The translations under genes and the position numbers were made by a program. Below, one piece after another: positions 1-36,083 of a stretch of DNA of 54,747 bases (its first letter is position 1; each line of letters begins with the position of its first letter). This DNA comes from Balneolaceae bacterium. Lineage in GTDB: Bacteria > Bacteroidota > Rhodothermia > Balneolales > Balneolaceae. Below the pieces are notes generated by a model. That model worked only from the letters and a program-made list of their open reading frames with translations. It was not told the DNA's origin and did no database searches. The stretch spans positions 1 to 54,747 of the forward strand of contig JAFIFA010000200.1 of assembly GCA_020832225.1 (NCBI GenBank). Direction: 5' to 3'.

Positions 1-1254
1 CACATGCATCACAACAACCTGTTTGGCCAACACGCTCTTGAGATATTTGGCGCACCTGAGGAGGACCTGGAAGGTTTTCAGCATGAGGCGATGACGATGC
101 TTACGCTCCATGAAATTGGCCATACGCTTGGGCTCAACCACAACATGCAGGCGAGTACACTCCATTCACCCGATGAGATCCACGATCTGGAGCTTGCCAA
201 TACCGTTGGCCTTACCGGTTCGGTAATGGACTACTCTTCCGTGAACGTTAATCCCGATCGTGAAAATCAGGGACGGTACTACGACATCAAGCCGGGTCCG
301 TACGATATCTGGGCGATCCGTTTTGGCTACTCACCGGCCCTCGATGATCCTGAAGCGGAGAAAGAGCGGCTTGAGGAGATTCTCTCAGAGTCTACCAAAC
401 CGGAGCACGCATTTGGTAACGACGCAGATGATATGAGATCGCCGGGTGGAGGAATCGACCCCAGAGTAATGATTGGCGATATGTCGAGTGATCCCGTAGC
501 CTACGGTGTACAGCGAATGGATCTGGTTAAAGAGCTGAAGGACGGACTGCTGGAGAAGTTTGGCACCCGTGAGGGGCAATCCTACCAGGAGCTGCGCAAC
601 GCCTACATGATGCTGATGAACCAATACCGGACACAGACCGGTGTGATTTCACGTCAGATTGGTGGTGTTTACAGAGACAGGGCAAAAATCGGACAGGAGG
701 GAGGCGATATTCCTTTCAGAGCGGTGCCCGCAGCCCAGCAGCAGGAGGCGATGGATTATCTGTCGCGATACCTTTTTGCTCCGGATGCATTTGCCACATC
801 ACATGAGGTCTATAACTACCTGCAAATTCAGCGAAGGGGATTCAACTTCTTTGGCACCAACGAGGATCCGAAAATTCACGATCAGGTACTGATCATGCAG
901 AATAACGTGTTGAATCATCTTCTGCATCAGAACACCCTGCTTCGTCTCACCGACTCACGCACGTATGGCAATGAGTACGCCGTAGCTGATATGGTGTCGG
1001 ATCTGACAGGGGCGGTCTTTAACGCAGATGCTCGCAGCAATGTGAATACGTTCCGTCAAAATCTTCAGGTAGATTATGTGGAACGACTGATTGCGATGAC
1101 CGAAAATGGCGCCTATGATCACGTTGCCAAGTCGGCTGCACTTTACAGCCTGCAGACGATCCGCTCAATGATGGATAACCGTGGCAGTGTAAATGCGGAG
1201 ACACGTGCGCATACAGCCCATATCAAACACCTGATTGACAAGGCGCTGGATTAA
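1..1254 (+). CDS. Zinc-dependent metalloprotease, C-terminal part (DUF4953-type)
   Basis: The reading frame is open from the first base, so the true start lies outside the window; 417 residues are visible. Near residue 36 is an extended metzincin zinc site, HEIGHTLGLNH, with three His ligands and the catalytic Glu. About 40 residues later comes SVMDYSSV, which fits the Met-turn. This arrangement matches the large secreted DUF5117/DUF4953 proteases of Bacteroidota-like bacteria (usually 800 residues or more), so roughly half the protein is missing. The rest is the helical C-terminal region of that family. It is probably periplasmic or outer-membrane associated, which cannot be checked because the N-terminus is absent. 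A clear terminator hairpin follows the stop. The family call is firm; the substrate is unknown. Confidence 0.88.
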   Translation, partial: HMHHNNLFGQHALEIFGAPEEDLEGFQHEAMTMLTLHEIGHTLGLNHNMQASTLHSPDEIHDLELANTVGLTGSVMDYSSVNVNPDRENQGRYYDIKPGPYDIWAIRFGYSPALDDPEAEKERLEEILSESTKPEHAFGNDADDMRSPGGGIDPRVMIGDMSSDPVAYGVQRMDLVKELKDGLLEKFGTREGQSYQELRNAYMMLMNQYRTQTGVISRQIGGVYRDRAKIGQEGGDIPFRAVPAAQQQEAMDYLSRYLFAPDAFATSHEVYNYLQIQRRGFNFFGTNEDPKIHDQVLIMQNNVLNHLLHQNTLLRLTDSRTYGNEYAVADMVSDLTGAVFNADARSNVNTFRQNLQVDYVERLIAMTENGAYDHVAKSAALYSLQTIRSMMDNRGSVNAETRAHTAHIKHLIDKALD

Positions 1255-1284
1255 ACGGCAGCCACTTAAAAGTTGATGATATTC

Positions 1285-1318
1285 AAAATCCGCAGGGTGT
1301 TCTCCTTGCGGATTTTTT
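1285..1318 (+). terminator. Rho-independent terminator after the metalloprotease gene
   Basis: An inverted repeat (AAAATCCGCA with TGCGGATTTT, short loop) runs directly into a T-tract, 30 bases after the metalloprotease stop. Confidence 0.85.
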
Positions 1319-1366
1319 ATTTGAAGAAGAGTTGATGCTGAACGGGAAGCTGTTCAGACATGGCTG

Positions 1367-1969
1367 CTATGTACTCCCTTTTCGATCCTGCCAGTTCTCG
1401 TAATCGCCCTGCTGCTGTTCTTTCCGGTTTTCGGGGATTTCTCTGAGAGGCTCACACTCTTTTAGCGATTCGTGAAGCTGTTGCGGAAGCCGTTGATACC
1501 AGCCAGTTCCCTCTGTTTTCCAGTTGGCCATCTCATCGGTTACATCCTTTACAATCTTTCCGGGATTTCCGACAACCACTTTTCGGTCGGGAATTTGCAT
1601 CCCCTCCTTAATAAATGCCAGGGCACCGATCACGCACTCTTTTCCGATGGTTACGCGATCCATCACCACGGCATTCATACCTACGAGGGTGTTTTCGCCG
1701 ATAGTAGCACCATGTATGATTGCGCCATGACCAACATGTGCAGCTTTGTGCAAAGTCACGGTTACACCGGGAAACATGTGGATGGTGCAGTTCTCCTGAA
1801 CGTTACAGCCATCTTCGATCACGATCTTTCCCCAGTCTCCGCGTATAGCTGCCCCGGGCCCGATATAGACATCTCTGCCGATAATCACATTTCCGGTAAC
1901 TGCAGCCTGCGGATGAACAAAAGAAGATTCATGAACGACAGGTTTGTAGCCGTTGAATTCGTAGAACAT
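1367..1969 (-). CDS. Gamma-carbonic-anhydrase-like / PaaY-type hexapeptide-repeat protein
   Basis: 200 residues from the ATG at 1969. A longer GTG start at 2005 only adds residues derived from the neighbouring repeat, so ATG is preferred. The protein is a left-handed beta-helix of hexapeptide repeats (GNVIIG, RDVYIG, GENTLVG, VTIGKECVIG). It has the gamma-class metal-site pattern HMFPG followed by HVGHGAIIHG, giving the expected His ligands. PaaY and YrdA relatives act as cytosolic carbonic anhydrase-like proteins or CoA thioesterases. The neighbouring acyl-CoA dehydrogenases make a CoA-thioester housekeeping role plausible (inference). The C-terminal tail is charged and Gln-rich (near ENRKEQQQG). 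The repeat block lies between it and the upstream dehydrogenase. Confidence 0.85.
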   Translation of the reverse strand: MFYEFNGYKPVVHESSFVHPQAAVTGNVIIGRDVYIGPGAAIRGDWGKIVIEDGCNVQENCTIHMFPGVTVTLHKAAHVGHGAIIHGATIGENTLVGMNAVVMDRVTIGKECVIGALAFIKEGMQIPDRKVVVGNPGKIVKDVTDEMANWKTEGTGWYQRLPQQLHESLKECEPLREIPENRKEQQQGDYENWQDRKGST

Positions 1970-1999
1970 AGTTTGGAGGTGTCTTTCGGTTTTGTGATG

Positions 2000-2312
2000 A
2001 ACCACGGGGCACAGAGAACACAGCGGTATTTTTCCATTAGAAAGAAACCATCAAGCCTCAAAATTCTCTGAGCTTTCTATGATTTTATTAATGCCGCGGA
2101 GACAAGGAGTTCACAGAGAGGTCTGCCCATGAGAAAGCAATCTTCAAGTCCATAAAACCTCTGAGTACTCTGTGCACTCTGTGGTTCCTAAGTATGCTGT
2201 GCTACCTAATTATGTGACGGAGACAATGAATTCATTGAGGTATCTAACTATTAGAAAAGCACTTTTCAAACCCAAAAAAAACTCTGAGCTCTCTGTGCCC
2301 TCTGTGGTTAAA
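2000..2312. repeat. Cluster of inverted repeats built on a CACAGAG / CTCTGTG motif
   Basis: This 345-base gap between two minus-strand genes is filled by short-period repeats. Copies in one orientation: AACCACGGGGCACAGAG (from 2000) and CGGAGACAAGGAGTTCACAG (from 2097). Copies in the opposite orientation: CTCTGAGTACTCTGTGCACT (from 2160) and CTCTGAGCTCTCTGTGCCCT (from 2283), each followed by CTGTGGTT. Worn copies sit near 2066-2080 and 2213-2240. Arms facing each other suggest two or three nested or tandem inverted-repeat elements. No protein is encoded. The outer edge lies two bases beyond the TAG stop of the dehydrogenase gene, and the opposite edge touches the start of the gamma-CA gene. 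The sequence differs from the GACTCA family elsewhere in the window but the layout is similar. Confidence 0.75.
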
Positions 2313-2314
2313 TA

Positions 2315-3523
2315 CTATCCATTCCCCTTCGGCGTGAATGCCTGTATGCCCGTGATCTCCCGACCGAGGATCAGTCCATGGATGTCGTAAGTTCCTTCAT
2401 AGGTGTTTACCGACTCCAGGTTCACCATGTGGTGGATAACGCGATACTCTCCGGTGATGCCGTTGCCGCCGTGCATGTCGCGCGCCACTCTGGCAATATC
2501 GAGAGCTTTGCCGACATTGTTCCGTTTGGCCAGTGAGACCATGGAAGGGTGAAGGCGTCCCTGATCTTTAAGCTGACCGAGTCGCCAGGCCAGCATCTGC
2601 ATGGAGGTGATGTCGGTTAGCATATTGGCCAGTTTGGTTTGCGGCAGCTGGTTGGCTGCAATTGGCTGACCAAACTGCTTTCGTTCGCCTACATACTGAC
2701 GTGCCCGCTGGTAGCAGTACTCAGCCGCTCCGATGGCGCCCCAGGCGATTCCATATCGTGCACTGTTGAGGCACATGAATGGGCCTTTGAGTCCGCGAAT
2801 TTCAGGAAATGCATTTTCGTCCGGTACAAAAACATCCTCAAAAACCATTTCGCCGGTGGAGGATGCACGTAGACTCATCTTATGTTTTGTGACGGGGGTA
2901 GAGTAACCCTCCATCTCTTTTTCAACGATAAAGCCGCGAATAACGGGTTTGTCATCTTTATGCTCTTTGGCTTTTGCCCAAACGATTCCCACATCTGAAA
3001 CGGGTGAGTTGGTGATCCACATCTTGGCACCGTTCAGAATCCATCCGCCGTCGGTTTTGATTGCGTTGGTGACCATCGAACCGGGGTCGGAACCATGATC
3101 GGGTTCGGTGAGGCCGAAGCATCCGATAATCTCTCCGGTAGCCAATCTTGGCAAAAAGCGCTGCTTCTGTTCTTCGGTACCAAACTGAGAGATCGGGTAC
3201 ATCACCAGGGATGACTGCACCGACATGAAAGAGCGGTATCCAGAGTCGACCCGCTCCACTTCACGGGCAACGAGTCCATATGCGGTTTCGCTGGCACCAA
3301 CTCCGCCATATTTGGGATCGATGGTGGCACCGAGTAATCCGAGATCGCCCATCTCTTTGGCGATATCCATATCAAAAATCTCTTCCTGGTTACCCTTTAG
3401 AGCGCGTGGTTCGAGCTTGGTTTGAGCGTATTCACGAGCCGTCTCCATGATCATTCTATCATCTTCGGAGAGTTCAGACTCAAAGAGGTATGCGTCGTCT
3501 ATATTAAATTGTTTTTTGGCCAT
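2315..3523 (-). CDS. Acyl-CoA dehydrogenase, glutaryl-CoA dehydrogenase-like
   Basis: 402 residues from the ATG at 3523; a TTG 33 bases upstream also gives an open frame but is less likely. This is a full-length flavin acyl-CoA dehydrogenase: N-terminal helical domain, CFGLTEPDHGSDPGSM and WITNSP FAD/substrate loops, then the C-terminal helical domain. NTYEGTYDIHGLILGREITG carries the catalytic Glu in the position and context typical of glutaryl-CoA dehydrogenase, as does LNSARYGIAWGAIGAAE. The enzyme would oxidise glutaryl-CoA or a related acyl-CoA and pass electrons to ETF, encoded 5 kb away. Family membership is clear; glutaryl specificity is inferred from motif resemblance. Confidence 0.87.
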   Translation of the reverse strand: MAKKQFNIDDAYLFESELSEDDRMIMETAREYAQTKLEPRALKGNQEEIFDMDIAKEMGDLGLLGATIDPKYGGVGASETAYGLVAREVERVDSGYRSFMSVQSSLVMYPISQFGTEEQKQRFLPRLATGEIIGCFGLTEPDHGSDPGSMVTNAIKTDGGWILNGAKMWITNSPVSDVGIVWAKAKEHKDDKPVIRGFIVEKEMEGYSTPVTKHKMSLRASSTGEMVFEDVFVPDENAFPEIRGLKGPFMCLNSARYGIAWGAIGAAEYCYQRARQYVGERKQFGQPIAANQLPQTKLANMLTDITSMQMLAWRLGQLKDQGRLHPSMVSLAKRNNVGKALDIARVARDMHGGNGITGEYRVIHHMVNLESVNTYEGTYDIHGLILGREITGIQAFTPKGNG

Positions 3524-3954
3524 TCTATGAGGTGTTTTAAGCGGTTGATCGGTCAAATCGTAGCATTCTTAACGTAAGGTAATGATTTAAGTATCTGAAA
3601 TCATGGAAAGAGAGAAGATTTTGGAAATTTTTTAAGAAAATATTTATTATTTTAAAAAAACCTCACTACTGCTACGATATAATTCAAAATATCGCAAAAA
3701 TCCGGATGATTACTGTCAAGTTTTGATTTCGGACGATGCGGTAGCGTTTATCTGAAAAGCCGCTTTCTGAATAAGGGAGTGGCTTTTCTGTTTTTGGACG
3801 CAGAATTACATTGATTCAGAACACTGAGTTGTTTGAAGCAAATGCCCCCCCTTCATTAAAAAATTAAATTGAGAAAAGCCGGAATGCGCCTCAAAAAAAA
3901 GCCACACCCTGATAAAGAGCGCGGCTTAGCTAATCTCACAGAGCTGTCGGGTTA
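3524..3954. other. Intergenic region between two acyl-CoA dehydrogenase genes
   Basis: No convincing ORF. It holds an A/T-rich stretch (about 3625-3665) upstream of the downstream dehydrogenase, a hairpin with arms GAAAAGCC at 3754-3761 and GGCTTTTC at 3781-3788, and a minus-strand terminator at 3893-3928 (listed separately). The A/T-rich part is the likely promoter region for the gene starting at 3523, but I could not fix a motif. Confidence 0.6.
3893..3928 (-). terminator. Terminator of the 3955-5145 acyl-CoA dehydrogenase gene
   Basis: Read on the minus strand, AAGCCGC pairs with GTGGCTT around a 15-base loop and is followed by eight T. It starts 27 bases after the stop. Confidence 0.75.
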
Positions 3955-5145
3955 TTAACTGTTATAACCCAGCTCATTCTTAATCTCACGCGCGAGAATC
4001 AGTCTCTGAATTTCAGAGGTACCCTCACCGATGGTCATCAGTTTGGAGTCGCGCAAAAACCGTTCCACGTGATACTCCTTGGTGTAGCCATATCCGCCAT
4101 GGATCTGGATAGCATCGAGGGCGGCACGCTCGGATAACTCTGAAGCAAAGAGTTTTGCCATGGATGCCTCCTTGGTGTATGGGCGTCCGTTGTCTTTCAG
4201 CCACGCAGCGCGGTGCACCAGGAGTCGGGCCGCGTCAATTTCGACGGCCATATTCACCATTTTGTGCTCAATCGCCTGGAAATCACCGATCGATTTTCCA
4301 AACTGCTTGCGCTCTTTTGCATATTTCATGGACTCTTCGAGGGCTCCGCGGGCAATTCCCACAGAGAGGGCGCCAATTCCAATACGCCCGCCATCAAGCA
4401 CCTGCATCGTATCGACAAAGCCTTTTCCAAGTTCACCAAGCAGGTTTTCACCCGGAACACGGACATTCTCAAAATAGACCTCGGTGGTGTCGGATGAGTT
4501 CATACCGAGCTTGTGCATCGGTTCACCCGGTTTTACACCTTCCATTTCGCGCTCAACAATAAAGGCGCTGATTCCTTTGGTGCCGAGAGTAGGGTCGGTT
4601 TTGGCTAAAACAACATAGGTGTCTCCTACAGATCCTTGGGTAATAAAGATTTTTGCTCCGTTGATGATCCAGTCGTCGCCATCTTTCACCGCTGTCGTCT
4701 TCATATCGGACGCATCACTTCCAGATCCGGGCTCTGTAAGGCACCAGGCACCCAATTTTTCACCCTTTGTGAGTGGAGTCAGATATTTTCTTTTTTGGGC
4801 ATCATTTCCGGCATGTGCAATGTGTCCGCTGCCAAGTGAGGTGTGCGATGCAATTGTGAGTGCAAGGGAGGCGTCCCAGCGCGCAATCTCTTCGAGTGCA
4901 AGGCAGAAGCTTACGGTATCGAACCCGGCCCCTCCATACTTCTCCTCATGGTAGATGCCAAGCAGGCCCTGATCGGCAAGCATCTTAACAATATCGTGAG
5001 GAAACGTCTTGTTCATATCCCGCTCAATCACACCGGGTGCAATATGACGGGTGGCAAAGTCGCGAACCGTGTCGCGAATCATAACCTGATCGTCAGTCAG
5101 GTCGAAGGAGAGAGAGGTCGATTTTTCGAGTACGTCTAAATTCAT
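3955..5145 (-). CDS. Acyl-CoA dehydrogenase, short/medium-chain type
   Basis: 396 residues, the usual length for butyryl/short-chain acyl-CoA dehydrogenases. Typical motifs are [15 protein letters not shown] (FAD/substrate loop), [29 protein letters not shown], and the C-terminal [18 protein letters not shown] then [18 protein letters not shown], where the Glu in GEGTSE is the catalytic base. It catalyses the first step of beta-oxidation or branched-chain acyl-CoA oxidation, with ETF as acceptor. Chain-length specificity cannot be told from sequence alone. It has its own terminator and is transcribed separately from the other dehydrogenase. Confidence 0.9.
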
Positions 5146-5297
5146 TTCTGTATCTGATTAATTAATTGGAACCGCTTCCAAAGATAACGATTTCCTCAGG
5201 AAATTCATCAGTAGTTCCGTAAAGAAGCGGGAATTTTCCATCGTTCTGTATTTGTCTGCCTTAGAAACAGTAAGAGATGGTGAATCGTTTAAAATTT

Positions 5298-5344
5298 AAG
5301 TTTCATTCAAAAATCTTGAAACTTTTTTATACCTTAGCGCTAAG
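5298..5344. promoter_or_regulatory. Two inverted repeats in the divergent promoter region
   Basis: Between the divergent dehydrogenase (start 5145) and small lipoprotein (start 5405) genes lie AAGTTTCA (5298-5305) facing TGAAACTT (5317-5324), and the perfect palindrome CTTAGCGCTAAG (5333-5344). The first is followed by a short T-run but no gene lies upstream on that strand. They could be operators; no regulator is identified. Confidence 0.4.
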
Positions 5345-5404
5345 ATGATTGTACTTCTAACAGAATTTTAAATTTCTACCCGGAACCCATAAATTAAATT
5401 TACC

Positions 5405-5737
5405 ATGTCTCATAAAGCACTATTTTTTGCCATTACCATTCTGATGTTCGTAGGCGTTGCCTGCGGGAGTTCAGGCCCTATGTCTTCTGAAGATCAGACT
5501 GCACTAACCGGTGTTGTTCTGGACCATGAATCATGGGATAGAATTGCAGATGCTACTGTACGCCTGGTTGATGAGGATAACTCTCAGGTAACCAATGAAA
5601 ACGGCATCTTCGCATTTATCGGAGTGGGCGTTGGTTCTCATACCGTTGAGGTTGAAGCTGAAGGATATGGCACCTCACAGCACACTGTCGAAGTTGAAGC
5701 CGGCGGTACGCGAGTTCAGCTTAAAATCGGCAGTTAA
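5405..5737 (+). CDS. Small lipoprotein with one carboxypeptidase-regulatory-like domain
   Basis: 110 residues. The N-terminus is a lipoprotein signal (hydrophobic ITILMFVGVAC with Cys20 as lipobox Cys). From about residue 33 comes one beta-sandwich repeat of the CarboxypepD_reg/PEGA type: LTGVVLDHESWDRIADATVR, then NENGIFAFIGVGVGSHTVEV and EAEGYGTSQHTVEVEAG. Such domains are stalks or binding modules and are not catalytic. The next gene encodes a similar protein, suggesting a tandem duplication. A strong terminator follows. Function unknown beyond an envelope location. Confidence 0.78.
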   Translation: MSHKALFFAITILMFVGVACGSSGPMSSEDQTALTGVVLDHESWDRIADATVRLVDEDNSQVTNENGIFAFIGVGVGSHTVEVEAEGYGTSQHTVEVEAGGTRVQLKIGS

Positions 5738-5762
5738 CGGATTTAGAGCCTACAAAAGGTTT

Positions 5763-5797
5763 AAAAACCCGGCCCTTTTTGGGAGCCGGGTTTTTTT
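5763..5797 (+). terminator. Rho-independent terminator after the small lipoprotein gene
   Basis: AAAAACCCGGC pairs with GCCGGGTTTTT and runs into a seven-base T-tract. Confidence 0.9.
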
Positions 5798-5917
5798 ATG
5801 GGAAAAATTTTAAAAACAAACTCTCTATGTTGGAAACTATTTCCTTTTCTCTGAGTTAATTCACCTACGCAGTTTGACCAGCTGCACTTATCACATAAAA
5901 ATAAAACAGGAGAATTC

Positions 5918-6295
5918 ATGATGATGAATAAAACCGTCATGACGATAGTCCTGCTGTCCGCAGCCGCTCTTTTCTGGACAGCAGCACTAAATACTACTAC
6001 AGCAGATAATTATTTGCCTGAACTGGAAATATCAGGAAGCGTACACGATGCGGAGAATGGAGATGCCATAGAGGGTGCTCAGGTAATGCTGAACGACGAT
6101 GGAGAATCTGCAGTCACCAACGAGTATGGTGAATTTCTGTTTTCCGGTGTAGAACCGGGAACACATACGCTACGTGTCGATGCTGAAGGCTACAATGCAA
6201 CTTCCCGTCAGGTTGAGGTTGAGGATGACAGCGTTGCTGTTACGATCGATCTCTACCCGGAAGATGATGATGCAGGAATGGATCTGCACCGTTAA
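5918..6295 (+). CDS. Secreted protein with one carboxypeptidase-regulatory-like domain
   Basis: 125 residues. AGGAG six bases before the first ATG supports this start. The N-terminal signal peptide (VMTIVLLSAAALFWTAALNT) has no lipobox Cys. The rest is a single beta-sandwich module: LEISGSVHDAENGDAIEGAQ, TNEYGEFLFSGVEPGTHTLR, DAEGYNATSRQVEVEDDSVA. The tail is acidic and ends in DLHR. It is a paralogue of the preceding lipoprotein but probably free in the periplasm or exported. Function unknown; a terminator follows. Confidence 0.75.
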   Translation: MMMNKTVMTIVLLSAAALFWTAALNTTTADNYLPELEISGSVHDAENGDAIEGAQVMLNDDGESAVTNEYGEFLFSGVEPGTHTLRVDAEGYNATSRQVEVEDDSVAVTIDLYPEDDDAGMDLHR

Positions 6296-6879: not shown

Positions 6880-8202
6880 CTACAACGCTTTCGCTCCCTT
6901 CGCTCCAAGCTTGATCAGCTCCCAATAGGAGGCGTGTCGCTTGATGGCACCGCGAAGCATATCGCGCGATTTTGGAGTCGGTTCATTCTTGATGCTGAAG
7001 AAATTTCGTCCAAAGTCGCAGATTAGGTTGGGCACTTTCTGTGTCATTACCGGATCGTGCAGCAGGTGAACGGCATCCTGGAAATTGTTGATGTCTTTCA
7101 TAACATAACTCTCATCAAGGGTATCCTGGTATGCCTTCATGGCCAACTCACCAAAATCCTCTTTCTCTTTGGCGCCTACAATTGTTTCAGCTGCCAGAAT
7201 CCCCGACCGTATTGCGTAATCCATACCCTGAATCGCCTTTCCGGCGTTCATGAGCAGATTGGCTGCTTCACCACAAACCAGGAGACCCGCTTTGTAGAGT
7301 TGCTTCGGCATTACACGTTTATCACCAGAAGAGACAATGTGTGCGGAATACTCAACAACTTCACCTCCGCGAATTGTATCGGCTACGGCAGGGTGTTTTT
7401 TGAACTCATTGAGGATGTCGTGCGGCTTCTGCTCTTTTTCACGCAGATCCTTCAGCCCCAGTACCAACCCGAGTGAAATGGTATCCTTATTTGTGTAGAG
7501 AAACCCACCGCCCTCCACGCCATTGGTGGCAAAGCCTACAAATTCGTTGCTCATACCGCTTTTGCCGTTGAGCTGAAACCGGTTCTCAAGCACATCCTGA
7601 TCGAACCGGATAATCTCCTTGACGCCCGTCAGCATATGATCTGCGGGAACATATTTATCCTGCAATCCTACCTGACGAGTCAGCAGATTGTTTACACCTT
7701 CTGCAATGATGACCGAATCGGCGTAGAACTTATCCTCACCGGTACGGATTCCCACAACCTTGCCATCTTCCTGCAAAACCTCTTCAACGAGGATATTTGG
7801 GGCGATGAAGGAGTCCATAGCGTAATCACTCTTGTCAATCGCCTCCTGTACCTTGTCGGCCAGCCATCGGTCGAACTTGGATCGCAGAACAACTACTCCC
7901 GTATAGGGTGGTTCATTGAAATGTGAGGATTTGAAATCGATAGAGAAGGATGATTGTTCATCCAGAAAGGTGAGGCGTCTCTGATTAATGAAGCGGTCCC
8001 AGCCGGCATCCTCTTCCCAGTAGTTGGGAACGAGTTTGGCCAGGTCGTTACCCCACAATACGCCACCGGAGACATTCTTGGCCCCGGGAAACTCTCCTTT
8101 TTCAATCAGGAGAAATTTCATGTTGTTGTTGGCAAGCGTCATGGCCGCGGCTAATCCGGCTACACCGGCTCCCACGATGATACAGTCAAATTTTTCGTCC
8201 AT
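6880..8202 (-). CDS. fixC: FixC-like FAD-dependent oxidoreductase (ETF:quinone oxidoreductase flavoprotein)
   Basis: 440 residues. The N-terminal dinucleotide fold CIIVGAGVAGLAAAMTLANN binds FAD. Other family motifs are GAKNVSGGVLWG, DRWLADKVQEA, AEGVNNLLTRQ and CGEAANLLMNAGKAIQGMDY. With FixX it forms a membrane-associated unit moving electrons from EtfAB to quinone. No transmembrane span is seen, as is normal. Gene order etfB-etfA-fixC-fixX equals fixABCX. The start is 14 bases after the end of a GACTCA repeat element, so its leader derives from that element. ETF-linked beta-oxidation is the likely role, given the acyl-CoA dehydrogenases nearby; low-potential ferredoxin reduction as in nitrogen fixers is an alternative. 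Confidence 0.92.
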   Translation of the reverse strand: MDEKFDCIIVGAGVAGLAAAMTLANNNMKFLLIEKGEFPGAKNVSGGVLWGNDLAKLVPNYWEEDAGWDRFINQRRLTFLDEQSSFSIDFKSSHFNEPPYTGVVVLRSKFDRWLADKVQEAIDKSDYAMDSFIAPNILVEEVLQEDGKVVGIRTGEDKFYADSVIIAEGVNNLLTRQVGLQDKYVPADHMLTGVKEIIRFDQDVLENRFQLNGKSGMSNEFVGFATNGVEGGGFLYTNKDTISLGLVLGLKDLREKEQKPHDILNEFKKHPAVADTIRGGEVVEYSAHIVSSGDKRVMPKQLYKAGLLVCGEAANLLMNAGKAIQGMDYAIRSGILAAETIVGAKEKEDFGELAMKAYQDTLDESYVMKDINNFQDAVHLLHDPVMTQKVPNLICDFGRNFFSIKNEPTPKSRDMLRGAIKRHASYWELIKLGAKGAKAL

Positions 8203-8216
8203 AATTTGATAGTCTT

Positions 8217-8340
8217 TAGTCTTGAGTCGTGAGTCTTGAGAAGTTTGGGTAATTAGAAGCAGAGAATTCCACTCAAATTAGAAACCTAAGTCTGTTAAGT
8301 GGGTTCACCCTCAAGACTCAGGTCTCATGACTCACGACTA
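8217..8340. repeat. GACTCA-family inverted-repeat element 1 (etfA/fixC junction)
   Basis: 124 bp bounded by TA. The left arm starts TAGTCTTGAGTCGTGAGTC (8217-8235); the right arm is CTCAAGACTCAGGTCTCATG then ACTCACGACTA ending at 8340. Units are 7 bp, NGACTCA, with one base change in one unit. The core is about 65 bp and A/T-rich. On the minus strand the first three bases are the TAG stop of etfA. Removing the element with one TA gives GAAAAATAAAGACTATC, that is, a TAA stop followed 13 bases later by the fixC ATG. Confidence 0.88.
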
Positions 8341-9318
8341 TTTTTCACTTTTCACTTTCTTTATTTCCTCAATAAACGGCGGGAGAACTTTGTAGAGGTC
8401 ACCGACCAGTCCGTAATCAGCAATGTCGAAGATCGGCGCATCGGGGTCTTTGTTGATCGCCACGATCACTTTGCTGTTGGCCATGCCGGCCACGTGCTGT
8501 ATAGCTCCCGAGATACCAATGCCGATATAGAGCTGGGGTGAGACCACTTTTCCGGTCTGACCTATCTGAAGGCTTGGGTCGTAATCACCTGCCTCGGTTA
8601 GTGCCCGTGAGGCTCCAACGCCCGCATTCAGAACAGATGCGAGTTCAGAGATCAGATTTCGGCCCTCCTCATCTTTAACACCACGTCCGGCCGCAATCAC
8701 CACTTCCGCTTCTGAGAGATCGATGCGGTCTGAAGAAGAGCTGATGATCTCCTTTAGCGTAAGCCGGAGTTCATCATCGCTGAAGCTGAAGTCGATCGGC
8801 TCAACGGATGTATCGCCCTCTTGTTCAACCACATCGTAAGAACCGGAACGAACGGTGATCATCACACATTCTCCTTCCGCTTCCACGGCAGAGATGATTT
8901 TGGAGGCCATCACAGGTCGTTTTCCCTTTACACCATTATCCGTGAGCTCAAATTCAGACATATCGGCAAGAGCAGAAGCTCTACGGTTTGCAGCCAGCGC
9001 TCCCAGAATATCTTTTGAGCCTTCGGTTGACGCAAAAGCAACCAGCTTCGGGTTAATCTTTTCAACTGCTGCGGAAAGTGCTTTCAGTAGGGGGGTGTTG
9101 AGGTGGTTTTTGAAGATCGGATTCTCAATGGTGTAGATCACTGAGGGACCATACTTCTTCAGCGTATCGGTAACCGCTCCCGGATTCTGATCAACAACCA
9201 GCGCAGCGGAGGTGAGTCCCTTCTCTTTGGCAAGTTGATTGCAGCGTGAGAGAACTTCAAGTGATGAACGTTTGATCTTTCCGTCGTTAACAGAGATATA
9301 AGTTAGCAGAGTACTCAT
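8338..9318 (-). CDS. etfA: Electron transfer flavoprotein alpha subunit
   Basis: 326 residues. The C-terminal FAD domain is unmistakable: VIAAGRGVKDEEGRNLI, LNAGVGASRALTEAG, QIGQTGKVVSPQLYIGIGIS, GAIQHVAGMANSKVIVAINK and DPDAPIFDIADYGLVGDL. The N-terminal half has the divergent alpha-subunit fold. With EtfB it accepts electrons from acyl-CoA dehydrogenases and passes them to FixCX. It starts 27 bases downstream of etfB. Its TAG stop is also the first three bases of a repeat element, and a TAA was probably the ancestral stop. Confidence 0.95.
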   Translation of the reverse strand: MSTLLTYISVNDGKIKRSSLEVLSRCNQLAKEKGLTSAALVVDQNPGAVTDTLKKYGPSVIYTIENPIFKNHLNTPLLKALSAAVEKINPKLVAFASTEGSKDILGALAANRRASALADMSEFELTDNGVKGKRPVMASKIISAVEAEGECVMITVRSGSYDVVEQEGDTSVEPIDFSFSDDELRLTLKEIISSSSDRIDLSEAEVVIAAGRGVKDEEGRNLISELASVLNAGVGASRALTEAGDYDPSLQIGQTGKVVSPQLYIGIGISGAIQHVAGMANSKVIVAINKDPDAPIFDIADYGLVGDLYKVLPPFIEEIKKVKSEK

Positions 9319-29843: not shown

Positions 29844-31631
29844 ATGAGTGAAAATAAAACGACGTTGCCTGAACTTCTGTTTAAAGGCCTTGAAAACTAC
29901 CCGGCCGGCCTTTTTTCATCCGTAAAAAGAGATGGAAAGTGGATCGATACGTCCGTCTCAGACTTCACCACCAAGGTTAAACATTTTGCCCTGGGGCTCT
30001 ATGAACTGGGTGTGAGGCCGGGTGATAAGGTCTCTATCCATTCAGAGAACTCTACGGAGTGGTTAATTTGTGATCTGGCAATACTTAGTATTGGAGCGGC
30101 TGATGTGCCAATCTATTCCACTCAGCCGGGCGATCAGATTAAATACATTCTTGAGAACTCGGATGCTAAAGTTCACATCGTCTCGAACGATGAGATGTTT
30201 GCTGAAACCAAACCGCTTGTCAAGGAAGTGGAGTCTGTCAAAGCGATCATCTCCATCCTTGGGTCGAAGCATAAGAAGCTAAAACCGTTTGATGAAATTC
30301 TGGAATCAGGTAAAAAGCTAAATGAAGAGAAACCGAAACTCTTTGAAGAGCTCCGCGACGCAGTTAAACCGGATGATCTGGCCACACTGATCTACACATC
30401 AGGCACCACCGGTATGCCGAAAGGGGTGATGCTAACCCAGAACAACATCGCATCGAATGTTGTTGCATCCCTGGAGAAGCTCCCCTTCAGCGTTGAAGAA
30501 TTCTACAAAAAGGATGTGCTCTCCTACCTGCCTCTGTCACACGTTTTCGAGCGTATGATTGAGTATATGTATATCAGCATGGGTTGCCGAATATACTACA
30601 TCGAGGTGATTGAGGAGATTCGGGATGATTTTACCCACGTTAAGCCATTCTTCCTTGCAACGGTACCGAGGCTGCTCGAAAAAATACATACCGGTGTGAA
30701 GGTGAAAGGACAGGAGCTCTCCGGCCTGAAGAAGAACCTCTACTACTGGGCGATCTACATGACCGAGAACTACGATCCGGAAAATCCACCATCAGGTCTT
30801 GCAGCTGTTAAACATAAAATTGCCGACAAACTTATCTACAGCAAGATTCGTGAACTGTTTGGTGGCAATCTCCGCGGAATGGTGAGTGGCGGTGCTGCAC
30901 TCTCTCCGGAGGTCTTTAAATTTATGAACGCCATTGGATTTATCTGTGTGCAAGGCTACGGGCTTACAGAAACATCACCGGTAATAACCGTTCAAACTCC
31001 GGGCGCGATGAGAATCGGCACTTCGGGTAAGCCACTTCGCGATATTGAAGTTAAGATCGCTGAAGACAAGGAGATTTTGACCAGAGGTCCGCACGTGATG
31101 AAGGGCTACTACAAAAATGAGGAGAAGACCCGTGAAGTGATGACCGAGGATGGCTGGTTCATGACCGGCGATATCGGTAAGATCGATGAGGATGGATTCC
31201 TCTATATCACCGATCGCAAGAAGTCGATGTTTAAGCTCTCTACCGGAAAGTATGTGGCACCACAAAATGTGGAGAACGTCATCTCAGGCTCGGGCTACAT
31301 TGAGCAGACAGTGGTAATCGGCTACCAGAAGAAGTTCTGCTCGGCACTGATTGCACCATCCTACGACAATGTTTTGAAGAGGCTGAAGAGAGACGGAGTT
31401 GAACCCTCCAAGCCCTATGGAAAAGATGAGAAGGTGCGTGAGCTGATCTGGGGTGAAATGGAAAAAGCCAACAAACAACTATCCCCTTGGGAGCGTGTGA
31501 AGAAATTCGTACTGCTCGAAGAACCACTCTCCATCGACAACGGAGAACTAACACCAACCATGAAGGTAAAACGTCCCGTTGTCCACGAGAAGTTTAAGGA
31601 GGAGATTGAGGGGATGTATGCTGATGAGTAG
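29844..31631 (+). CDS. fadD: Long-chain fatty acid--CoA ligase
   Basis: 595 residues from ATG 29844 (MSENKTTLPELL); an ATG 45 bases upstream only adds non-conserved residues. AMP-forming ligase: phosphate loop TLIYTSGTTGMPKGVMLTQN, GYGLTETSPVITVQTPG, TGDIGKIDEDGFLYITDRKK and the C-terminal hinge and Lys region (STGKYVAPQNVE, LTPTMKVKRP). It makes acyl-CoA from long-chain fatty acids at the inner membrane face and starts the fad operon. Its TAG stop is the first three bases of a repeat element. Without the element the stop would be TAA and overlap the fadN start. Confidence 0.93.
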   Translation: MSENKTTLPELLFKGLENYPAGLFSSVKRDGKWIDTSVSDFTTKVKHFALGLYELGVRPGDKVSIHSENSTEWLICDLAILSIGAADVPIYSTQPGDQIKYILENSDAKVHIVSNDEMFAETKPLVKEVESVKAIISILGSKHKKLKPFDEILESGKKLNEEKPKLFEELRDAVKPDDLATLIYTSGTTGMPKGVMLTQNNIASNVVASLEKLPFSVEEFYKKDVLSYLPLSHVFERMIEYMYISMGCRIYYIEVIEEIRDDFTHVKPFFLATVPRLLEKIHTGVKVKGQELSGLKKNLYYWAIYMTENYDPENPPSGLAAVKHKIADKLIYSKIRELFGGNLRGMVSGGAALSPEVFKFMNAIGFICVQGYGLTETSPVITVQTPGAMRIGTSGKPLRDIEVKIAEDKEILTRGPHVMKGYYKNEEKTREVMTEDGWFMTGDIGKIDEDGFLYITDRKKSMFKLSTGKYVAPQNVENVISGSGYIEQTVVIGYQKKFCSALIAPSYDNVLKRLKRDGVEPSKPYGKDEKVRELIWGEMEKANKQLSPWERVKKFVLLEEPLSIDNGELTPTMKVKRPVVHEKFKEEIEGMYADE

Positions 31632-31758
31632 TCTTGAGTCGTGAGTCCTGAGTCTTGAGAGGGCCGGGACTTAATTCAAGATGTATGGACTAAGAAATGA
31701 ACAATTCAAGATTTTAATTCAATAAGCCTCATGACTCAAGACTCACGACTCAAGACTA
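31629..31758. repeat. GACTCA-family inverted-repeat element 2 (fadD/fadN junction)
   Basis: 130 bp. Left end TAGTCTTGAGTCGTGAGTC (31629-31647) and its exact 19-bp complement GACTCACGACTCAAGACTA at the right end (31740-31758). Each arm has three full NGACTCA units plus a terminal partial one (left 31629-31662, right 31727-31758); the A/T-rich core is about 65 bp. The right arm contains CTCATGACTCA, whose ATG starts fadN. Removing one TA plus the element restores GATGAGTAAAAACATC, an ATGAGTAA overlap between fadD and fadN. Confidence 0.92.
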
Positions 31759-34112
31759 AAAACATCCAAAACGTCCTCATCCTCGGCTCAGGTGTAATGG
31801 GCAGCCAGATTGCGGCGCACTGCATCAATGCCGGGCTTAGAGTGAAGCTGCTCGACCTGAAATCGGATGATCCCAAACGGCCGAACAAGACAGCGGAAGA
31901 GAGTATTCAAAAACTGACTAAAATGAACCCGGCGCCACTGGGCGATCCTGCTTGGGCAGAGCGGATCAAACCGGGGAATTTCGAGGATCATCTGGAGTGG
32001 GTTGCCGATGCTGACTGGGTCTGTGAGGTGATCGTGGAGCGGATGGACATCAAAAAGGATATGATGGCGAAGCTTGAGAAAGTTCGCAAGCCGGGCACGA
32101 TTGTGAGTTCGAACACTTCCGGATTACCTATTTCGCAAATCAGTGAAGATGTGTCTGATGAGTTCAAGTCGCATTTTCTGGGTACGCACTTCTTCAATCC
32201 GCCGCGATACATGAAGCTTCTGGAGATCATCCCGACAAAGAGTACGGATGATGCGGTTACGGAGTACATGACCCGATTCTGCGAGAAAATTCTCGGAAAG
32301 GGCACAGTACTCTGCAAGGATACCCCCAACTTCATCGCCAACCGGATCGGCGTCTTTTCGATGGCGGCGATGATGCCGTGGTTTTTTGATGGCAAGTTTC
32401 GTGCTGAGGAGATCGATTTTCTGACTGGAACCCTCACCGGCTACTCAAAAGCGGCGACGTTCCGTACCGCCGACATGGCCGGACTGGATGTGATCAATCA
32501 CGTATCTGAAAATCTCTATCCTGCTATTCCGGATGATGAGCGAAGGGAGGTGTTTAAGCTGCCTGAGGCTTTCAAAAAAATGGTTGAGAATGGTGCTCAT
32601 GGCAACAAAACTGGGCATGGTTTTTACAAAAAAGTGAAGGGCAAAAAAGGAAATGAATACCATGTGGTTGATCCCGGATCGCTGAAGTACGAAAAGCAGA
32701 TAGACGTCTCGTTTGAATCGGCCGGCAAAGCCAAAAAAGAGTATAAAACCCCTGGCGAACGACTGAAATTCCTGGTCAATCAGGATGATAAAGCCGGGAA
32801 GTTTTTGTGGGAGATTCACTGCGATCTGCTGCTATATTCAGCGAACCGTATTCCCGAAATCGCAGAATCCGTAGAAGCGATCGACCGCGCCATGCAGTGG
32901 GGCTTCAACTGGGAACTCGGGCCGTTTCAGCGATGGGATGCGATTGGGGTAGAAGAATCCGTAAAGCGCATGGAAAAGGAGGGACGAACGGTTCCCGATT
33001 CGGTGAAGAAGATGCTCGAAAGCGGACGGAAATCCTTCTATAAAAATGACGGTTCTGTTTACAACCTGGCTACCGGCAACGTTGATCAGCTGACTCCACC
33101 TGCAAAAGGAGCTCTAACAGCTGCCTCACTGAAGCGCAATGGAAAAGAGGTATGGGGCAACAAGAGTGCCGGACTCTACGATATGGGTGACGGTGTGGCG
33201 CTGTTCGAATTCCGGACCAAGCAGCAGACGCTCGGGTTTGAACTGGTGAAGTCGGTAGATAAAGCCGCAGAGATTGTAAAAGAGCAGTTTGATGCGATGG
33301 TGATCGGTCATGACCATGAGAATTTCAGCTATGGTGCAAACTTGGGTGAAGCGGGTCATGCGCTACAAAATGGTGACTTTGAAATGATCAAAGATGCTGT
33401 GGAGAGTTTCCAGCGGGTAGCGGTTGGTTTGCGATATCAGCCGTTCCCGGTGATTGGCGCTGTATCCGGCCGGTGCTTCGGCGGCGGCGTAGAGTTTATG
33501 ATGCACTGTGATAAAGTTGTGGCACACCATGAGTTTTACTGCGGACTGGTGGAGCTGGGTGTGGGACTGATTCCTGCAGGCGGCGGCACCAAAGAGCTGC
33601 TGCTTCGCGCCATGGAGAATGTGAAGGAGGATGAGGATGCCGATCCGCTTCCCTATCTGAAGGATGCGTTTAAAACGATCGGTATGGCGAAAGTCTCCGA
33701 TGGCGCACCCAAAGCGAAAAAGCTTGGCTACCTGCGCGACACTGATATGATTGTAATGCACCGAGATTTGCTCCTTTCAACCGCTAAACAGCAGGTACGT
33801 GCCATGGCCGAGGCGGGATATCGTCCGCCGGCAGAACCGAAAATCAAACTACTTGGCCAGACCGGCAAGAGCGTTCTGGATGTTACCGTCTACATCATGA
33901 CCGAAGCGAAGTGGGCATCACCCTACGATAAGGTATTGGCCGGAAAAGTTGCCGAAATCATGACCGGCGGAGACCTCAGCGAAGCCCAGGAAGTGCCGGA
34001 GTCTTATGTGCTGAAATTGGAGCGCGAAGCGATTCTTGAATGCTTCAAGGATGAGCGGAGTCATAAGAGGATGGAGCATATGCTGAAGACTGGGAAGCCT
34101 CTAAGAAACTAG
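31731..34112 (+). CDS. fadN: 3-hydroxyacyl-CoA dehydrogenase / enoyl-CoA hydratase fusion (FadN type)
   Basis: 793 residues. The dehydrogenase comes first: NAD fold NVLILGSGVMGSQIAAHCIN, the catalytic-region THFFNPPRYMKLLEIIPT and a second 3HCDH segment. The crotonase domain is C-terminal: GRCFGGGVEFMMHCDKVVAH and ELGVGLIPAGGGTKELLLRA. This order matches Bacillus FadN and is the reverse of FadB/FadJ. It does steps two and three of beta-oxidation. The first nine residues (MTQDSRLKT) come from the repeat element; the inferred ancestral start was MSKNIQNV. The ATG lies inside a predicted long stem. Confidence 0.93.
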   Translation: MTQDSRLKTKNIQNVLILGSGVMGSQIAAHCINAGLRVKLLDLKSDDPKRPNKTAEESIQKLTKMNPAPLGDPAWAERIKPGNFEDHLEWVADADWVCEVIVERMDIKKDMMAKLEKVRKPGTIVSSNTSGLPISQISEDVSDEFKSHFLGTHFFNPPRYMKLLEIIPTKSTDDAVTEYMTRFCEKILGKGTVLCKDTPNFIANRIGVFSMAAMMPWFFDGKFRAEEIDFLTGTLTGYSKAATFRTADMAGLDVINHVSENLYPAIPDDERREVFKLPEAFKKMVENGAHGNKTGHGFYKKVKGKKGNEYHVVDPGSLKYEKQIDVSFESAGKAKKEYKTPGERLKFLVNQDDKAGKFLWEIHCDLLLYSANRIPEIAESVEAIDRAMQWGFNWELGPFQRWDAIGVEESVKRMEKEGRTVPDSVKKMLESGRKSFYKNDGSVYNLATGNVDQLTPPAKGALTAASLKRNGKEVWGNKSAGLYDMGDGVALFEFRTKQQTLGFELVKSVDKAAEIVKEQFDAMVIGHDHENFSYGANLGEAGHALQNGDFEMIKDAVESFQRVAVGLRYQPFPVIGAVSGRCFGGGVEFMMHCDKVVAHHEFYCGLVELGVGLIPAGGGTKELLLRAMENVKEDEDADPLPYLKDAFKTIGMAKVSDGAPKAKKLGYLRDTDMIVMHRDLLLSTAKQQVRAMAEAGYRPPAEPKIKLLGQTGKSVLDVTVYIMTEAKWASPYDKVLAGKVAEIMTGGDLSEAQEVPESYVLKLEREAILECFKDERSHKRMEHMLKTGKPLRN

Positions 34113-34290
34113 TCGTGAGTCCTGAGTCTTGAGTCGTGAGATTTTCGGATTCAAGTTTTGAATTAAATTGATGTAACCATTCATAAAATGAGCTTCCTTT
34201 TTAATTTCAATCTACTTTTCCACCCACAAGACTCAAGACTCAAGACTCAAGACTCAGGACTCACGACTCACGACTCAAGACTCACGACTA
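34110..34290. repeat. GACTCA-family inverted-repeat element 3 (after fadN)
   Basis: 181 bp. Left arm TAGTCGTGAGTCCTGAGTCT and on to 34140 (three full units); its first three bases are the fadN stop. Right arm 34229-34290 has eight uninterrupted NGACTCA units (first base A,A,A,A,G,C,C,A) and ends CGACTA. Core about 85 bp, A/T-rich, unrelated to the cores of the other copies. Removing it with one TA gives AAACTAAATC, a TAA stop for fadN. Confidence 0.9.
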
Positions 34291-34330
34291 AATCAAAAAA
34301 AGTGTAAGGAGATTCAAATTTTGGGTTCAT

Positions 34331-34362
34331 ACAGGTTAGTGACAATTCATAACTAAACCTGT
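34331..34362 (+). other. Hairpin just upstream of the four-helix-bundle gene
   Basis: ACAGGTTAGT (34331-34340) faces ACTAAACCTGT (34352-34362), 10 pairs with one extra A, loop of 11. It ends six bases before the ATG of the four-helix-bundle gene and may control its translation or be a conserved part of the element. Confidence 0.55.
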
Positions 34363-34368
34363 TGAACC

Positions 34369-34767
34369 ATGGATAATTTTAGAAATCTGATTGTATGGAA
34401 GCGTGCTGTTGAACTGGCAACGAGTGTATATCGTAAAACCGTTAACTTTCCAAAGTATGAACTTTATGGATTAACCTCACAGATTAGGAGATCAGCAGTC
34501 TCAATCAGCTCAAATATCGCTGAAGGCGCAGGTCGAAGATCTAAGAAAGAGTTCGCCAATTTTCTTGGAATTTCTTACGGATCTGCCTGTGAATTGGAAA
34601 CACAGTTACTGATCGCAAGAAACCTGGAATACCTGGTTCCAACTGATTTTGATTCTCTCTTTGAAGAGTTAAATGAAATCCAAAAAATGCTCTACGCCCT
34701 GGAAAAGAAACAACGAAATCAAACTCAATCCCACCCTCATGACTCAAGACTCAAGACTCAAGACTAA
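34369..34767 (+). CDS. Four-helix-bundle protein (S23/IVP family, related to Avd)
   Basis: 132 residues. [40 protein letters not shown] and [20 protein letters not shown] are the hallmark of the 23S-rRNA-intervening-sequence/four-helix-bundle family, to which the Avd accessory protein of diversity-generating retroelements belongs (family knowledge). The basic pentamer-forming bundle is expected to bind nucleic acid. The last nine residues (HDSRLKTQD, ending at the TAA) are translated from the GACTCA repeat, so the gene ends inside the element. It sits between two repeat arms of the same orientation, within the fad operon, and overlaps the fadA start by 29 bases. No reverse transcriptase is in the window. 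Confidence 0.9.
34735..34766. repeat. GACTCA-family right arm at the fadA start
   Basis: CCTCATGACTCA followed by two AGACTCA units and AGACTA, ending at 34766. Same orientation as the right arm at 34229-34290, so the four-helix-bundle gene is flanked by direct repeats. The ATG of fadA (34739) and the stop of the four-helix gene both lie in it. Confidence 0.88.
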
Positions 34768-35947
34768 TAACAACGAAGTTGTTTTAGTAGCCGCCAAAAG
34801 AACCGCCTGCGGAAAGGCCAACAAAGGCTCCCTCCGTTTTACTCGTCCCGATTCACTGATGGGTGAAATCATCAAAGATCTATTAAAGCACGCTCCTGCG
34901 GTTAAACCAGAGATGGTGGATGACGTCATCGTAGGCTGTGCCTTTCCCGAAGGGTCGCAGGGGATGAATCTTGCACGGCAGGCAGTATTTCTGGGAGGGC
35001 TGCCCGACTCGGTTCCGGGGATGACCATCAACCGGTTCTGCTCGTCGGGTTTGCAGACGATAGCCATGGCTGCGGAGAGGATCATGGCGGGTGGTGCGGA
35101 GGTGATCATTGCCGGTGGGGTTGAGAGCATGAGCCAGGTGCCGATGGGCGGGGTTTCATTTCAACCGAATCCCGATCTGGCTGATCAGCGTCCGGAGGTC
35201 TATATCAACATGGGGCTGACGGCAGAGAATGTGGCGGACAAATATGGTGTGAGCCGGGAAGATCAGGATCAGTTTGCATTCAATAGCCATCAAAAGGCGA
35301 TTAAAGCGTGGGAAGAGGGGTACTTTGATGAGCAGATCACACCGGTTGAGGTGGTTCACAAGTATGTAACCGCTGACGGCGAAGTGGAAGAGAATAAATT
35401 TTCCTTTGTAAAGGATGAAGGTCCTCGCAAGGATACCAATATGGAAGCACTCGGCGGACTGCGCGCCGTGTTCAAAACAGGCGGTACCGTCACAGCCGGA
35501 AACTCCTCACAAATGAATGATGCTGCTGCAGGCGTACTGGTGATGAGCCGCAAAAAAGCGGATGAGTTGGGCCTGAAGCCGATCGCTCGGTATCTCGGTT
35601 TTGCAGTGGGCGGAGTTGCACCGGAAATTATGGGAATCGGTCCCGTTGAAGCGATCCCGAAAGTATTGAAACAGACCGGCCTGAAGCTGAATGATATCGA
35701 CTTGGTAGAACTGAACGAAGCGTTCGCTGCGCAGGCGCTGGCCGTTATTAGTGAAGCGGGGCTTGATCCCGAAAAAGTGAATATCAACGGAGGTGCGATC
35801 GCGATGGGTCACCCACTCGGCTGTACCGGCGCCAAACTCACCACACAGATCCTACACGACCTCCACAGGCTCGATAAACGCTACGGCATGGTAACGATGT
35901 GTATTGGTGGTGGTATGGGCGCTGCGGGGGTTTTTGAAAAGCTATAG
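34739..35947 (+). CDS. fadA: Acetyl-CoA acyltransferase (3-ketoacyl-CoA thiolase)
   Basis: 402 residues from ATG 34739. The nucleophile Cys is in [18 protein letters not shown]; the His is in [16 protein letters not shown]; the second Cys is in [14 protein letters not shown]. It cleaves 3-ketoacyl-CoA, the last step of beta-oxidation, as partner of FadN. The first nine residues (MTQDSRLKT) derive from the repeat, after which the typical [15 protein letters not shown] begins. An in-frame ATG at 34673 lies within the four-helix gene and is unlikely. No native ATG can be reconstructed upstream, so the gene now depends on the element's start codon. Confidence 0.93.
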
Positions 35948-36078
35948 AAATGAGTCTTGAGTCCTGAGTCTTGAGAAGGACCCGGGTGTAACTATAAATT
36001 CATGCTAAGGCTTTCGATTATTGGTTAATTTTAAAAAGTAGAAAAAACTCACGACTCACGACTCAAATCTCAAGACTA
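35945..36078. repeat. GACTCA-family inverted-repeat element 4 (fadA/SDR junction), partly worn
   Basis: 134 bp. Left arm TAGAAATGAGTCTTGAGTCC then TGAGTCTTGAG, in register with the others but TAGAAA replaces TAGTCN. Right arm CTCACGACTCACGACTCAAA then TCTCAAGACTA, one unit altered. Removal with one TA gives CTATAATAATATGTTC: a TAA stop for fadA and the SDR ATG three bases further on. Confidence 0.85.
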
Positions 36079-36083
36079 ATAAT

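Follow-up and report, generated by a model that had tools for sequence, protein, structure and literature searches.

Tandem CACAGAG/CTCTGTG arm units beside an acyl-CoA dehydrogenase gene of a Balneolaceae bacterium as probable old gene-less copies of a GxxExxY nuclease-coding element

The gap between an acyl-CoA dehydrogenase gene and a gamma-CA/PaaY-like gene of a Balneolaceae bacterium contains facing copies of the word CACAGAG/CTCTGTG, which raises the question of what these repeats are and from what they derive. The window, i.e., the whole 54,747-nucleotide stretch of DNA that was analyzed, is one contig (G000:C155) of a 3.37-Mb draft genome. A preliminary description had reported the repeat between a dehydrogenase and a gamma-CA gene, with at least two facing arm pairs and further worn copies. 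The repeat sequence, the boxes, and the names of the neighboring genes were confirmed, the latter by acyl-CoA dehydrogenase domains and by a match to hexapeptide gamma-CA/PaaY-like proteins (PaaY at 228.9 bits, under the curated cut-off of 319.6). The arm pairs and worn copies could be refined to three related tandem units within the gap 1970–2314, each of about 90–120 bp and with facing arms around an A/T-richer core:

1367..1969, minus strand: gamma-CA/PaaY-like hexapeptide protein gene, likely start codon at 1969
1999..2088, no strand assigned: unit 1, gene-less element; left arm ~2000–2023 (ACCACGGGGCACAGAGAACACAG), core, worn right arm ~2064–2087
2086..2190, no strand assigned: unit 2; left arm ~2094–2120 (CCGCGGAGACAAGGAGTTCACAGAGAG), core, right arm ~2157–2186 (CTCTGAGTACTCTGTGCACTCTGTGGTT)
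2190..2312, no strand assigned: unit 3; worn left arm ~2209–2243, core, right arm ~2281–2309 (CTCTGAGCTCTCTGTGCCCTCTGTGGTT)
2315..3556, minus strand: acyl-CoA dehydrogenase gene, stop codon 2315–2317

CACAGAG boxes are located at 2010–2016 and 2112–2118, a CGCGGAG box at 2095–2101, and CTCTGTG boxes at 2168, 2177, 2291, and 2300. The CTCTGTG boxes are 9 bp apart within each right arm (units 2 and 3), in agreement with the short period near 8–9 bp that had been noted, and the A/T-rich cores were likewise found (GC 0.31, 0.41, and 0.26 vs. 0.479 for the window). The unit ends read AACC...GGTT. The statement that the arms lie edge to edge with both genes holds for the dehydrogenase side, where the last arm ends at 2309 and the stop codon occupies 2315–2317, but not for the gamma-CA/PaaY-like side, where 30 bp separate the likely start codon from the first arm, which begins near 2000.

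Comparison with shuffled sequences yielded the following results. The 19-mer CTCTGTGNNCTCTGTGGTT (≤3 mismatches) was present three times in the window, with two exact occurrences in the gap 1970–2314, and in 100 dinucleotide shuffles it had a mean of 0.08 and never reached three. The suspicion that the arms might prove unrelated once aligned did not hold: pairwise global alignments of the three units, cores included, scored 79, 119, and 73, above the best of 300 shuffles in each case (58.5, 67, and 64). A genome-wide pattern search for the arm word gave 13 matches, compared to 0 for the reversed pattern. Chance or low-complexity sequence could be invoked for the bare 7-mer CTCTGTG, which is only mildly enriched in the window (11 vs. 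6.4 expected; 8 of 100 shuffles had as many), but such an origin of the gap repeats is rejected by the 19-mer, the reversed-pattern control, and the unit alignments, and its probability is close to nil. Folding of the gap, proposed as a check, gave a divided picture: the minus strand of 1996–2314 surpasses 100 shuffles in its folding (z −4.26), whereas on the plus strand each unit by itself folds unremarkably (z −1.6, −1.77, and +0.58). An Rfam search of window positions 1–6000 gave no match.

Clustering of the repeat over the genome and its relatives, which had also been proposed, led from the arm matches to GxxExxY elements in the same genome and in the congener G003. No near-identical copy of the window units was found elsewhere in the own genome, and on contig C113 (locus L010) two arm matches face each other at a distance of 758 bp and enclose a 147-aa ORF:

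L010, ~1033–1815: GxxExxY element with ORF 1337–1780; TIGR04256 at 139.2 bits, PF13366 (PDDEXK_3) at 135.4 bits

When the window array was searched against 28 congeneric genomes (own included; E ≤ 0.001), the only non-self matches were one arm of the G003 GxxExxY element, which shares 91% identity over 33 bp with the right arm of unit 2, and two arms of the own genome. All gene-bearing copies with these arms that were found in the own genome code for GxxExxY proteins. According to profile matches, this genome has three GxxExxY genes and six four-helix-bundle (TIGR02436) genes, and all nine lie, as judged by eye, among facing arms of tandem short words, whereby the word differs by locus and its spacing is about 9 bp at the GxxExxY genes and 7–8 bp at the four-helix-bundle genes. 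This supports and extends the earlier suggestion of several parallel families that share one architecture and differ in their words. With a broader pattern applied to 92 genomes, 14 pairs among the matches listed face each other at a distance under 1000 bp (candidates picked by eye). Nine pairs are 26–56 bp apart, which is too close for a gene, and the other five, at 428–758 bp, all enclose a listed GxxExxY match, the one in G012 with two stop codons.

Two side observations concern copies in the own genome. The start of the GxxExxY ORF of L010 (1337–1380, MSNFSEIPTHHGPS) is much like the start of valS behind it (1822–1865, MSNLSDIPKQYNPS), as if the valS start had been duplicated or captured upon insertion at rsmB-valS. 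Contigs G000:C19 (L009) and G000:C138 (L011) share a near-identical stretch whose left arm has the word CACAGAG and whose right arm is of CGCTGAG type; this may be a mixed-word element that was recently copied.

Association of the boxes with GxxExxY genes was analyzed in a family sample of 92 genomes, 61 of which gave a GxxExxY match and 77 a four-helix-bundle match. The loci were drawn from the higher-ranking entries of the match lists and thus form a non-random sample: 73 GxxExxY, 75 four-helix-bundle, and, as a control, 30 acyl-CoA-dehydrogenase loci, with long enough flanks in 73, 74, and 29, respectively. Tandem boxes of the motif CRCNRAK (C-A/G-C-N-A/G-A-G/T) at 8–12 bp spacing were counted in 350-bp flanks. 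They were present at 53/73 GxxExxY, 1/74 four-helix-bundle, and 5/29 acyl-CoA-dehydrogenase loci; the reversed motif was present in the same flanks at 8/73, 6/74, and 0/29. Under a strict label, a box pair belonging to a single word class is missing at 24/73 GxxExxY loci. Facing arms (p ≤ 0.01 vs. 100 dinucleotide shuffles) were detected at 40/73, 55/74, and 1/29 loci, respectively. The best self-match lag was 7 or 14 in 54 and 8 in 17 of the 74 four-helix-bundle loci; at the 73 GxxExxY loci, lags of 9, 10, and 12 lead weakly, with z ≥ 3 at the best lag in only 14. Control flanks also show lag 7 (z ≥ 3 in 10/29), because gene-less 7-mer elements are common there. In GxxExxY flanks the direct-repeat match is stronger than the inverted one (median 40 vs. 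27), probably an effect of complete palindromic units on either side of the gene. When flanks were mispaired as a control, own flanks did not stand out (7/33 and 0/35 exceeded the 95th percentile of the control); this control is uninformative, because words are shared among loci and the set contains orthologous loci, and was replaced by the dinucleotide shuffles and control genes. At least one box pair was found in 37/61 genomes with GxxExxY vs. 8/31 genomes without (Fisher p 0.002, uncorrected for genome completeness or kinship).

In a wider scan of named genomes the GxxExxY profile had at least 580 relatives. Of these, the 80 that ranked highest by likeness to the CAC-clade protein of the own genome were kept, and 77 had long enough flanks. 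Boxes were present at 67/77 loci, with a spacing peak at 9 bp, compared to 12/77 for the reversed motif and 4/64 for the same loci 700–1050 bp away, and 43/77 loci have boxes that face inward in both flanks. The prevailing word is CAC at 42 loci and CGC at 23. The box-bearing loci represent 14 named phyla, including an archaeal one; many belong to metagenome bins, in which a short contig might be misassigned (the archaeal contig has 3,043 bp). Matches were rare among plasmids (6 of 72,556 records) and absent among phages (50,697 records); GxxExxY elements are thus mostly chromosomal, and plasmids and phages are not their main carriers.

For the gap in the window, this means that the tandem CRCNRAK boxes in facing arms (2010, 2095, and 2112; 2168/2177 and 2291/2300) and the likeness of the arms to those of gene-bearing copies (G003, L010) are present and the gene between the arms is absent; a search in six frames of 1970–2320 gave no match to a GxxExxY remnant. 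Since there is no GxxExxY gene in 1970–2320, the window copies can only be gene-less derivatives, and it is very probable that the elements from which they derive are GxxExxY elements.

In the GxxExxY protein, the PD-(D/E)XK active-site residues D, E, and K and a Q are intact at 73/73 loci, and the Y of QxxxY at 69/73. The predicted structure (pLDDT 85.9, pTM 0.76) has its nearest folds in SSO0001, which we take to be a Cas4 protein, lambda exonuclease, and AddAB, although these matches are weak (best E 0.016, TM 0.47). The GxxExxY profile gave no match among PDB sequences.

The word of the arms follows the protein. Mapped onto the tree of GxxExxY proteins, the word label (CAC or CGC) changes five times, compared to a mean of 13 in shuffled labels, and 0 of 500 shuffles were as low; this test comprised 15 CAC and 33 CGC loci, 25 loci with no clear label were omitted, and near-copies ease clustering. 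Among pairs of significant-arm loci from different genera, with orthologous pairs removed, protein identity predicts arm similarity for GxxExxY (rho 0.215, p 0.009) as well as for four-helix-bundle proteins (rho 0.484, p 0.001). Within one genome, the association of protein and arms was again seen for the four-helix-bundle family (rho 0.476, p 0.017, 22 pairs) and was absent for GxxExxY (rho −0.098, 16 pairs). Gene and arms are thus inherited together as a unit. The protein-word association would be read most simply as the protein recognizing its word; mere linkage between gene and arms would produce it as well.

Insertion and decay were traced at sites where element-bearing and element-free genomes can be compared. 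In the gap that separates scpB from an astE-like gene (31 loci fetched, both genes adjacent in 25), 4/25 genomes, all of one genus (G064, G061, G058, and G059), carry a complete element, i.e., a 435–528-bp GxxExxY element with CACAGAG/CACAAAG arms between stop codon and start codon. Relics that keep the arms and a C-terminal GxxExxY tail are present in G062 of the same genus (346 bp) and in G081 of another genus (247 bp), whereby the tail match has an E value of 2e-7 for G081 and only 0.18 for G062. The gap is ≤12 bp in 10/25 genomes and holds other sequence of 35–135 bp in 9/25. No target duplication was evident at this one insertion site compared with the diverged empty sites. Since two genera share the same GxxExxY site, movement may be an infrequent event. 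At the window gap itself, the empty-site comparison that had been called for gave no empty site: among six congeners with the same gene order, none is empty and each is filled by other repeat words. At the congener loci L025, L027, L029, and L030, the acyl-CoA dehydrogenase/gamma-CA gap has a different inverted repeat word, CCTGACAGCGT/ACGCTGTCAGG.

At rsmB-valS, where 29 of 30 loci were readable by eye, three loci are gene-bearing with CAC arms, 11 have gene-less hairpins with CGC- or CAC-type arms, two have decayed hairpins, and 13 have no element. Gaps with gene-less forms (~90 bp) are no longer than element-free gaps, so that these forms replace rather than add sequence, and some element-free congeners have a terminator-like hairpin at this place (by eye). 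Pairs were counted by arm position, since the alignment of the 11 gene-less hairpins had misplaced two rows. In seven collinear gene-less hairpins 124/133 cells are paired and four pairs have changed on both sides, vs. 39–51/133 and no double change when one arm is slid by 1–3; with two diverged rows added, the values are 156/171 and nine double-changed pairs, vs. 56–70/171 and 1–4 when slid. Gene-bearing arms show no sense-strand excess of G.U over A.C mismatches (55 vs. 46 and 37 vs. 39), which would speak against a purely RNA role of these arms.

The window also contains elements of a sister family with a different word and gene:

34109..34783, plus strand: four-helix-bundle (23S_rRNA_IVP) element in the fadB-fadA-like gap; gene 34369–34767, PF05635 at 138.7 bits, GACTCAA/TTGAGTC arms
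8205..8345, no strand assigned: gene-less GACTCAA-word element, fold z −4.91
31628..31762, no strand assigned: gene-less GACTCAA-word element, fold z −6.58, upstream stop codon TAG within the first arm
35943..36080, no strand assigned: gene-less element with GACTCAA words

In the first of these elements the right arm includes the likely start codon of the fadA-like gene, so that the first residues encoded by this gene, MTQDSRLKT..., are element-derived; the start of ORF 31731 may likewise lie inside an arm. The fadB-fadA gap is occupied differently across congeners: by the four-helix-bundle element, by a DUF559-type gene with CCCCTCC arms on either side, by gene-less versions that belong to several families, or by no element at all. 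The DUF559-type endonuclease gene between CCCCTCCTT...AAGGAGGGG arms (L359, L360, and L379), in or near fadB-fadA of congeners, was noted as a third parallel family with gene-less members (L362, L363, and L365), whereby the Pfam basis of the DUF559 call is the L360 gene only (G021), which is located behind fadA. For the 8200–8350 element no empty site was found, all five congeners being occupied by elements with differing words: in L114, L120, L124, L125, and L127 a facing-arm element has the word AGTCNTG or AGTANTG, and the word change affects both arms together. Three other window gaps had no comparable ortholog in the congener comparison. An exact 41-bp direct repeat at window positions 36891–36931 and 37487–37527, 596 bp apart, possibly reflects a partial gene duplication.

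The comparisons established a gene-and-arm unit, a word that tracks the protein clade, insertion between stop codon and start codon, and a decay in which the gene is lost and the arms are kept. For the locus as a whole we favor, with some reserve, the reading that the window units are old gene-less copies of a nuclease-coding element, nuclease-driven movement included. A complete element consists of one GxxExxY gene, coding for a PD-(D/E)XK nuclease of the RecB/Cas4/lambda-exonuclease kind, between facing arms of 7-bp boxes about 9 bp apart. The protein would recognize its own element's boxes, probably when the two arms have paired into a hairpin or cruciform, and would nick or resect the DNA, whereupon repair would copy arms and gene into a new gap. 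Gene-less copies with the same word might be mobilized in trans, and later tandem duplication or serial insertion would have produced the three units of the window, which now diverge. The step that the GxxExxY nuclease itself moves the elements has slightly less than an even chance in our estimation. Against the reading as a whole stand that neither excision, transposition, or binding nor a target duplication was seen, that the window units show no GxxExxY remnant and no near-identical copy in the genome, that gene-less forms at rsmB-valS replace sequence, that the protein-word association is absent within one genome for GxxExxY, and that part of the GxxExxY loci show no box pair of one class or no significant facing arms. 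Still more tentative is the generalization to a transposase-free class of mobile elements, in which one small protein (GxxExxY, four-helix-bundle S23/IVP, or DUF559) would read a clade-specific tandem word in facing arms and copy the unit into stop-start gaps, and in which arms that outlive their gene would account for much of the short repeats found between genes in many phyla.

It might also be that arms and gene travel as one unit that is moved by another enzyme, such as a transposase or recombinase, or by replication slippage and repair, and that the GxxExxY protein has its job elsewhere, e.g., in DNA repair or defense. Neither a transposase fold nor a target duplication was seen, the fold is nearest to Cas4/RecB-type exonucleases, which do not transpose alone, and three unrelated genes (GxxExxY, four-helix-bundle, and DUF559) occur in similar arms, even in the same gap of different species. 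We nevertheless regard this possibility as rather unlikely, since the word changes with the protein clade and the box grammar is specific to the gene family; a mere passenger need not keep this link, though tight linkage could do so.

Alternatively, the hairpins could be kept for the host as terminators, mRNA processing sites, or protein-binding sites, with their spread being incidental. The rsmB-valS hairpins that keep their pairing through changes on both sides, the terminator-like hairpin of some element-free congeners, and the strong folds of the sister elements would fit such a function, which however appears improbable given that sister species have nothing or else unrelated families in the same gap, that the G.U excess is missing in gene-bearing arms, and that the window units alone fold unremarkably. 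The paired changes at rsmB-valS, as well as the both-arm word differences between congeners at 8200–8350, would also be expected if template switching or gene conversion homogenizes the arms and copies word changes with neither selection nor a dedicated protein. This purely mutational account leaves the CRCNRAK boxes at GxxExxY genes of many phyla and the astE-scpB insertion unexplained, and we give it even less credit.

If the arms derive from a nuclease-coding element, as we favor, several consequences follow. Heptamer arrays and short palindromes between genes have often been described as orphan repeats with no mechanism. A word family that is tied to a protein family across phyla, with a one-base word difference tracking the protein tree, would turn them into a testable problem of protein-DNA recognition, and the uncharacterized GxxExxY family would gain a likely substrate. 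As a warning, start codons, stop codons, and operon gaps beside such arms may be element-derived.

In the open-licence literature, no description of GxxExxY genes between such arms or of this architecture was found, nor any paper on PDDEXK_3; the term GxxExxY occurs in two papers (PMC12085832, PMC8934634), neither of which was seen to treat arms. Among known repeats, MITEs are alike in being gene-less, inverted-repeat, and multi-copy; they differ in that the arms here are arrays of a degenerate word. The gene-bearing copies found with these arms code for GxxExxY proteins instead of a transposase, and no target duplication was evident at the one insertion site compared. The STRR heptamers of cyanobacteria are tandem 7-bp words between genes and resemble the present arms in this respect. 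TAACTGA heptamer arrays of Beggiatoaceae, Cyanobacteria, and Bacteroidetes consist of 7-bp words repeated in tandem between genes, in many cases immediately ahead of a start codon; they are scattered over unrelated phyla and considered possibly horizontally transmitted, with no mechanism evident. They are described as direct repeats, “helix bundle” is absent from the text, and the passages containing “inverted” mention no facing arms around a gene (PMC4679880). In our view these arrays may belong with the elements described here. The 23S rRNA intervening sequences, in which a short S23p/IVP four-helix-bundle ORF lies between inverted terminal repeats (PMC4990558), are alike in build, and the GACTCAA sister family of the window carries the same Pfam family, PF05635. 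They differ in lying inside 23S rRNA genes instead of between protein genes and in coding for S23p, whereas the CACAGAG family codes for a nuclease; in this gap there is no TIGR02436 match.

In REPIN-RAYT systems the RAYT partner is a tyrosine transposase (Y1/HuH). The partner in matching arms here is a PF13366/TIGR04256 PD-(D/E)XK protein instead, the arms are built of 7-bp boxes that follow each other about every 9 bp, and the gene lies inside the facing arms. A GTAG or CGTC tag marks one end of REP palindromes and is absent from the window units with their AACC...GGTT ends. The likeness to REPIN/REP-RAYT (TnpAREP) lies in the large number of short, gene-less palindromes between genes and in their dependence on one dedicated partner gene (PMC3116915, PMC8266576, PMC3733652). 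Two defining features of REPIN-RAYT are thus lacking here, and in its mode of working the proposed GxxExxY element would still be best compared with this system.
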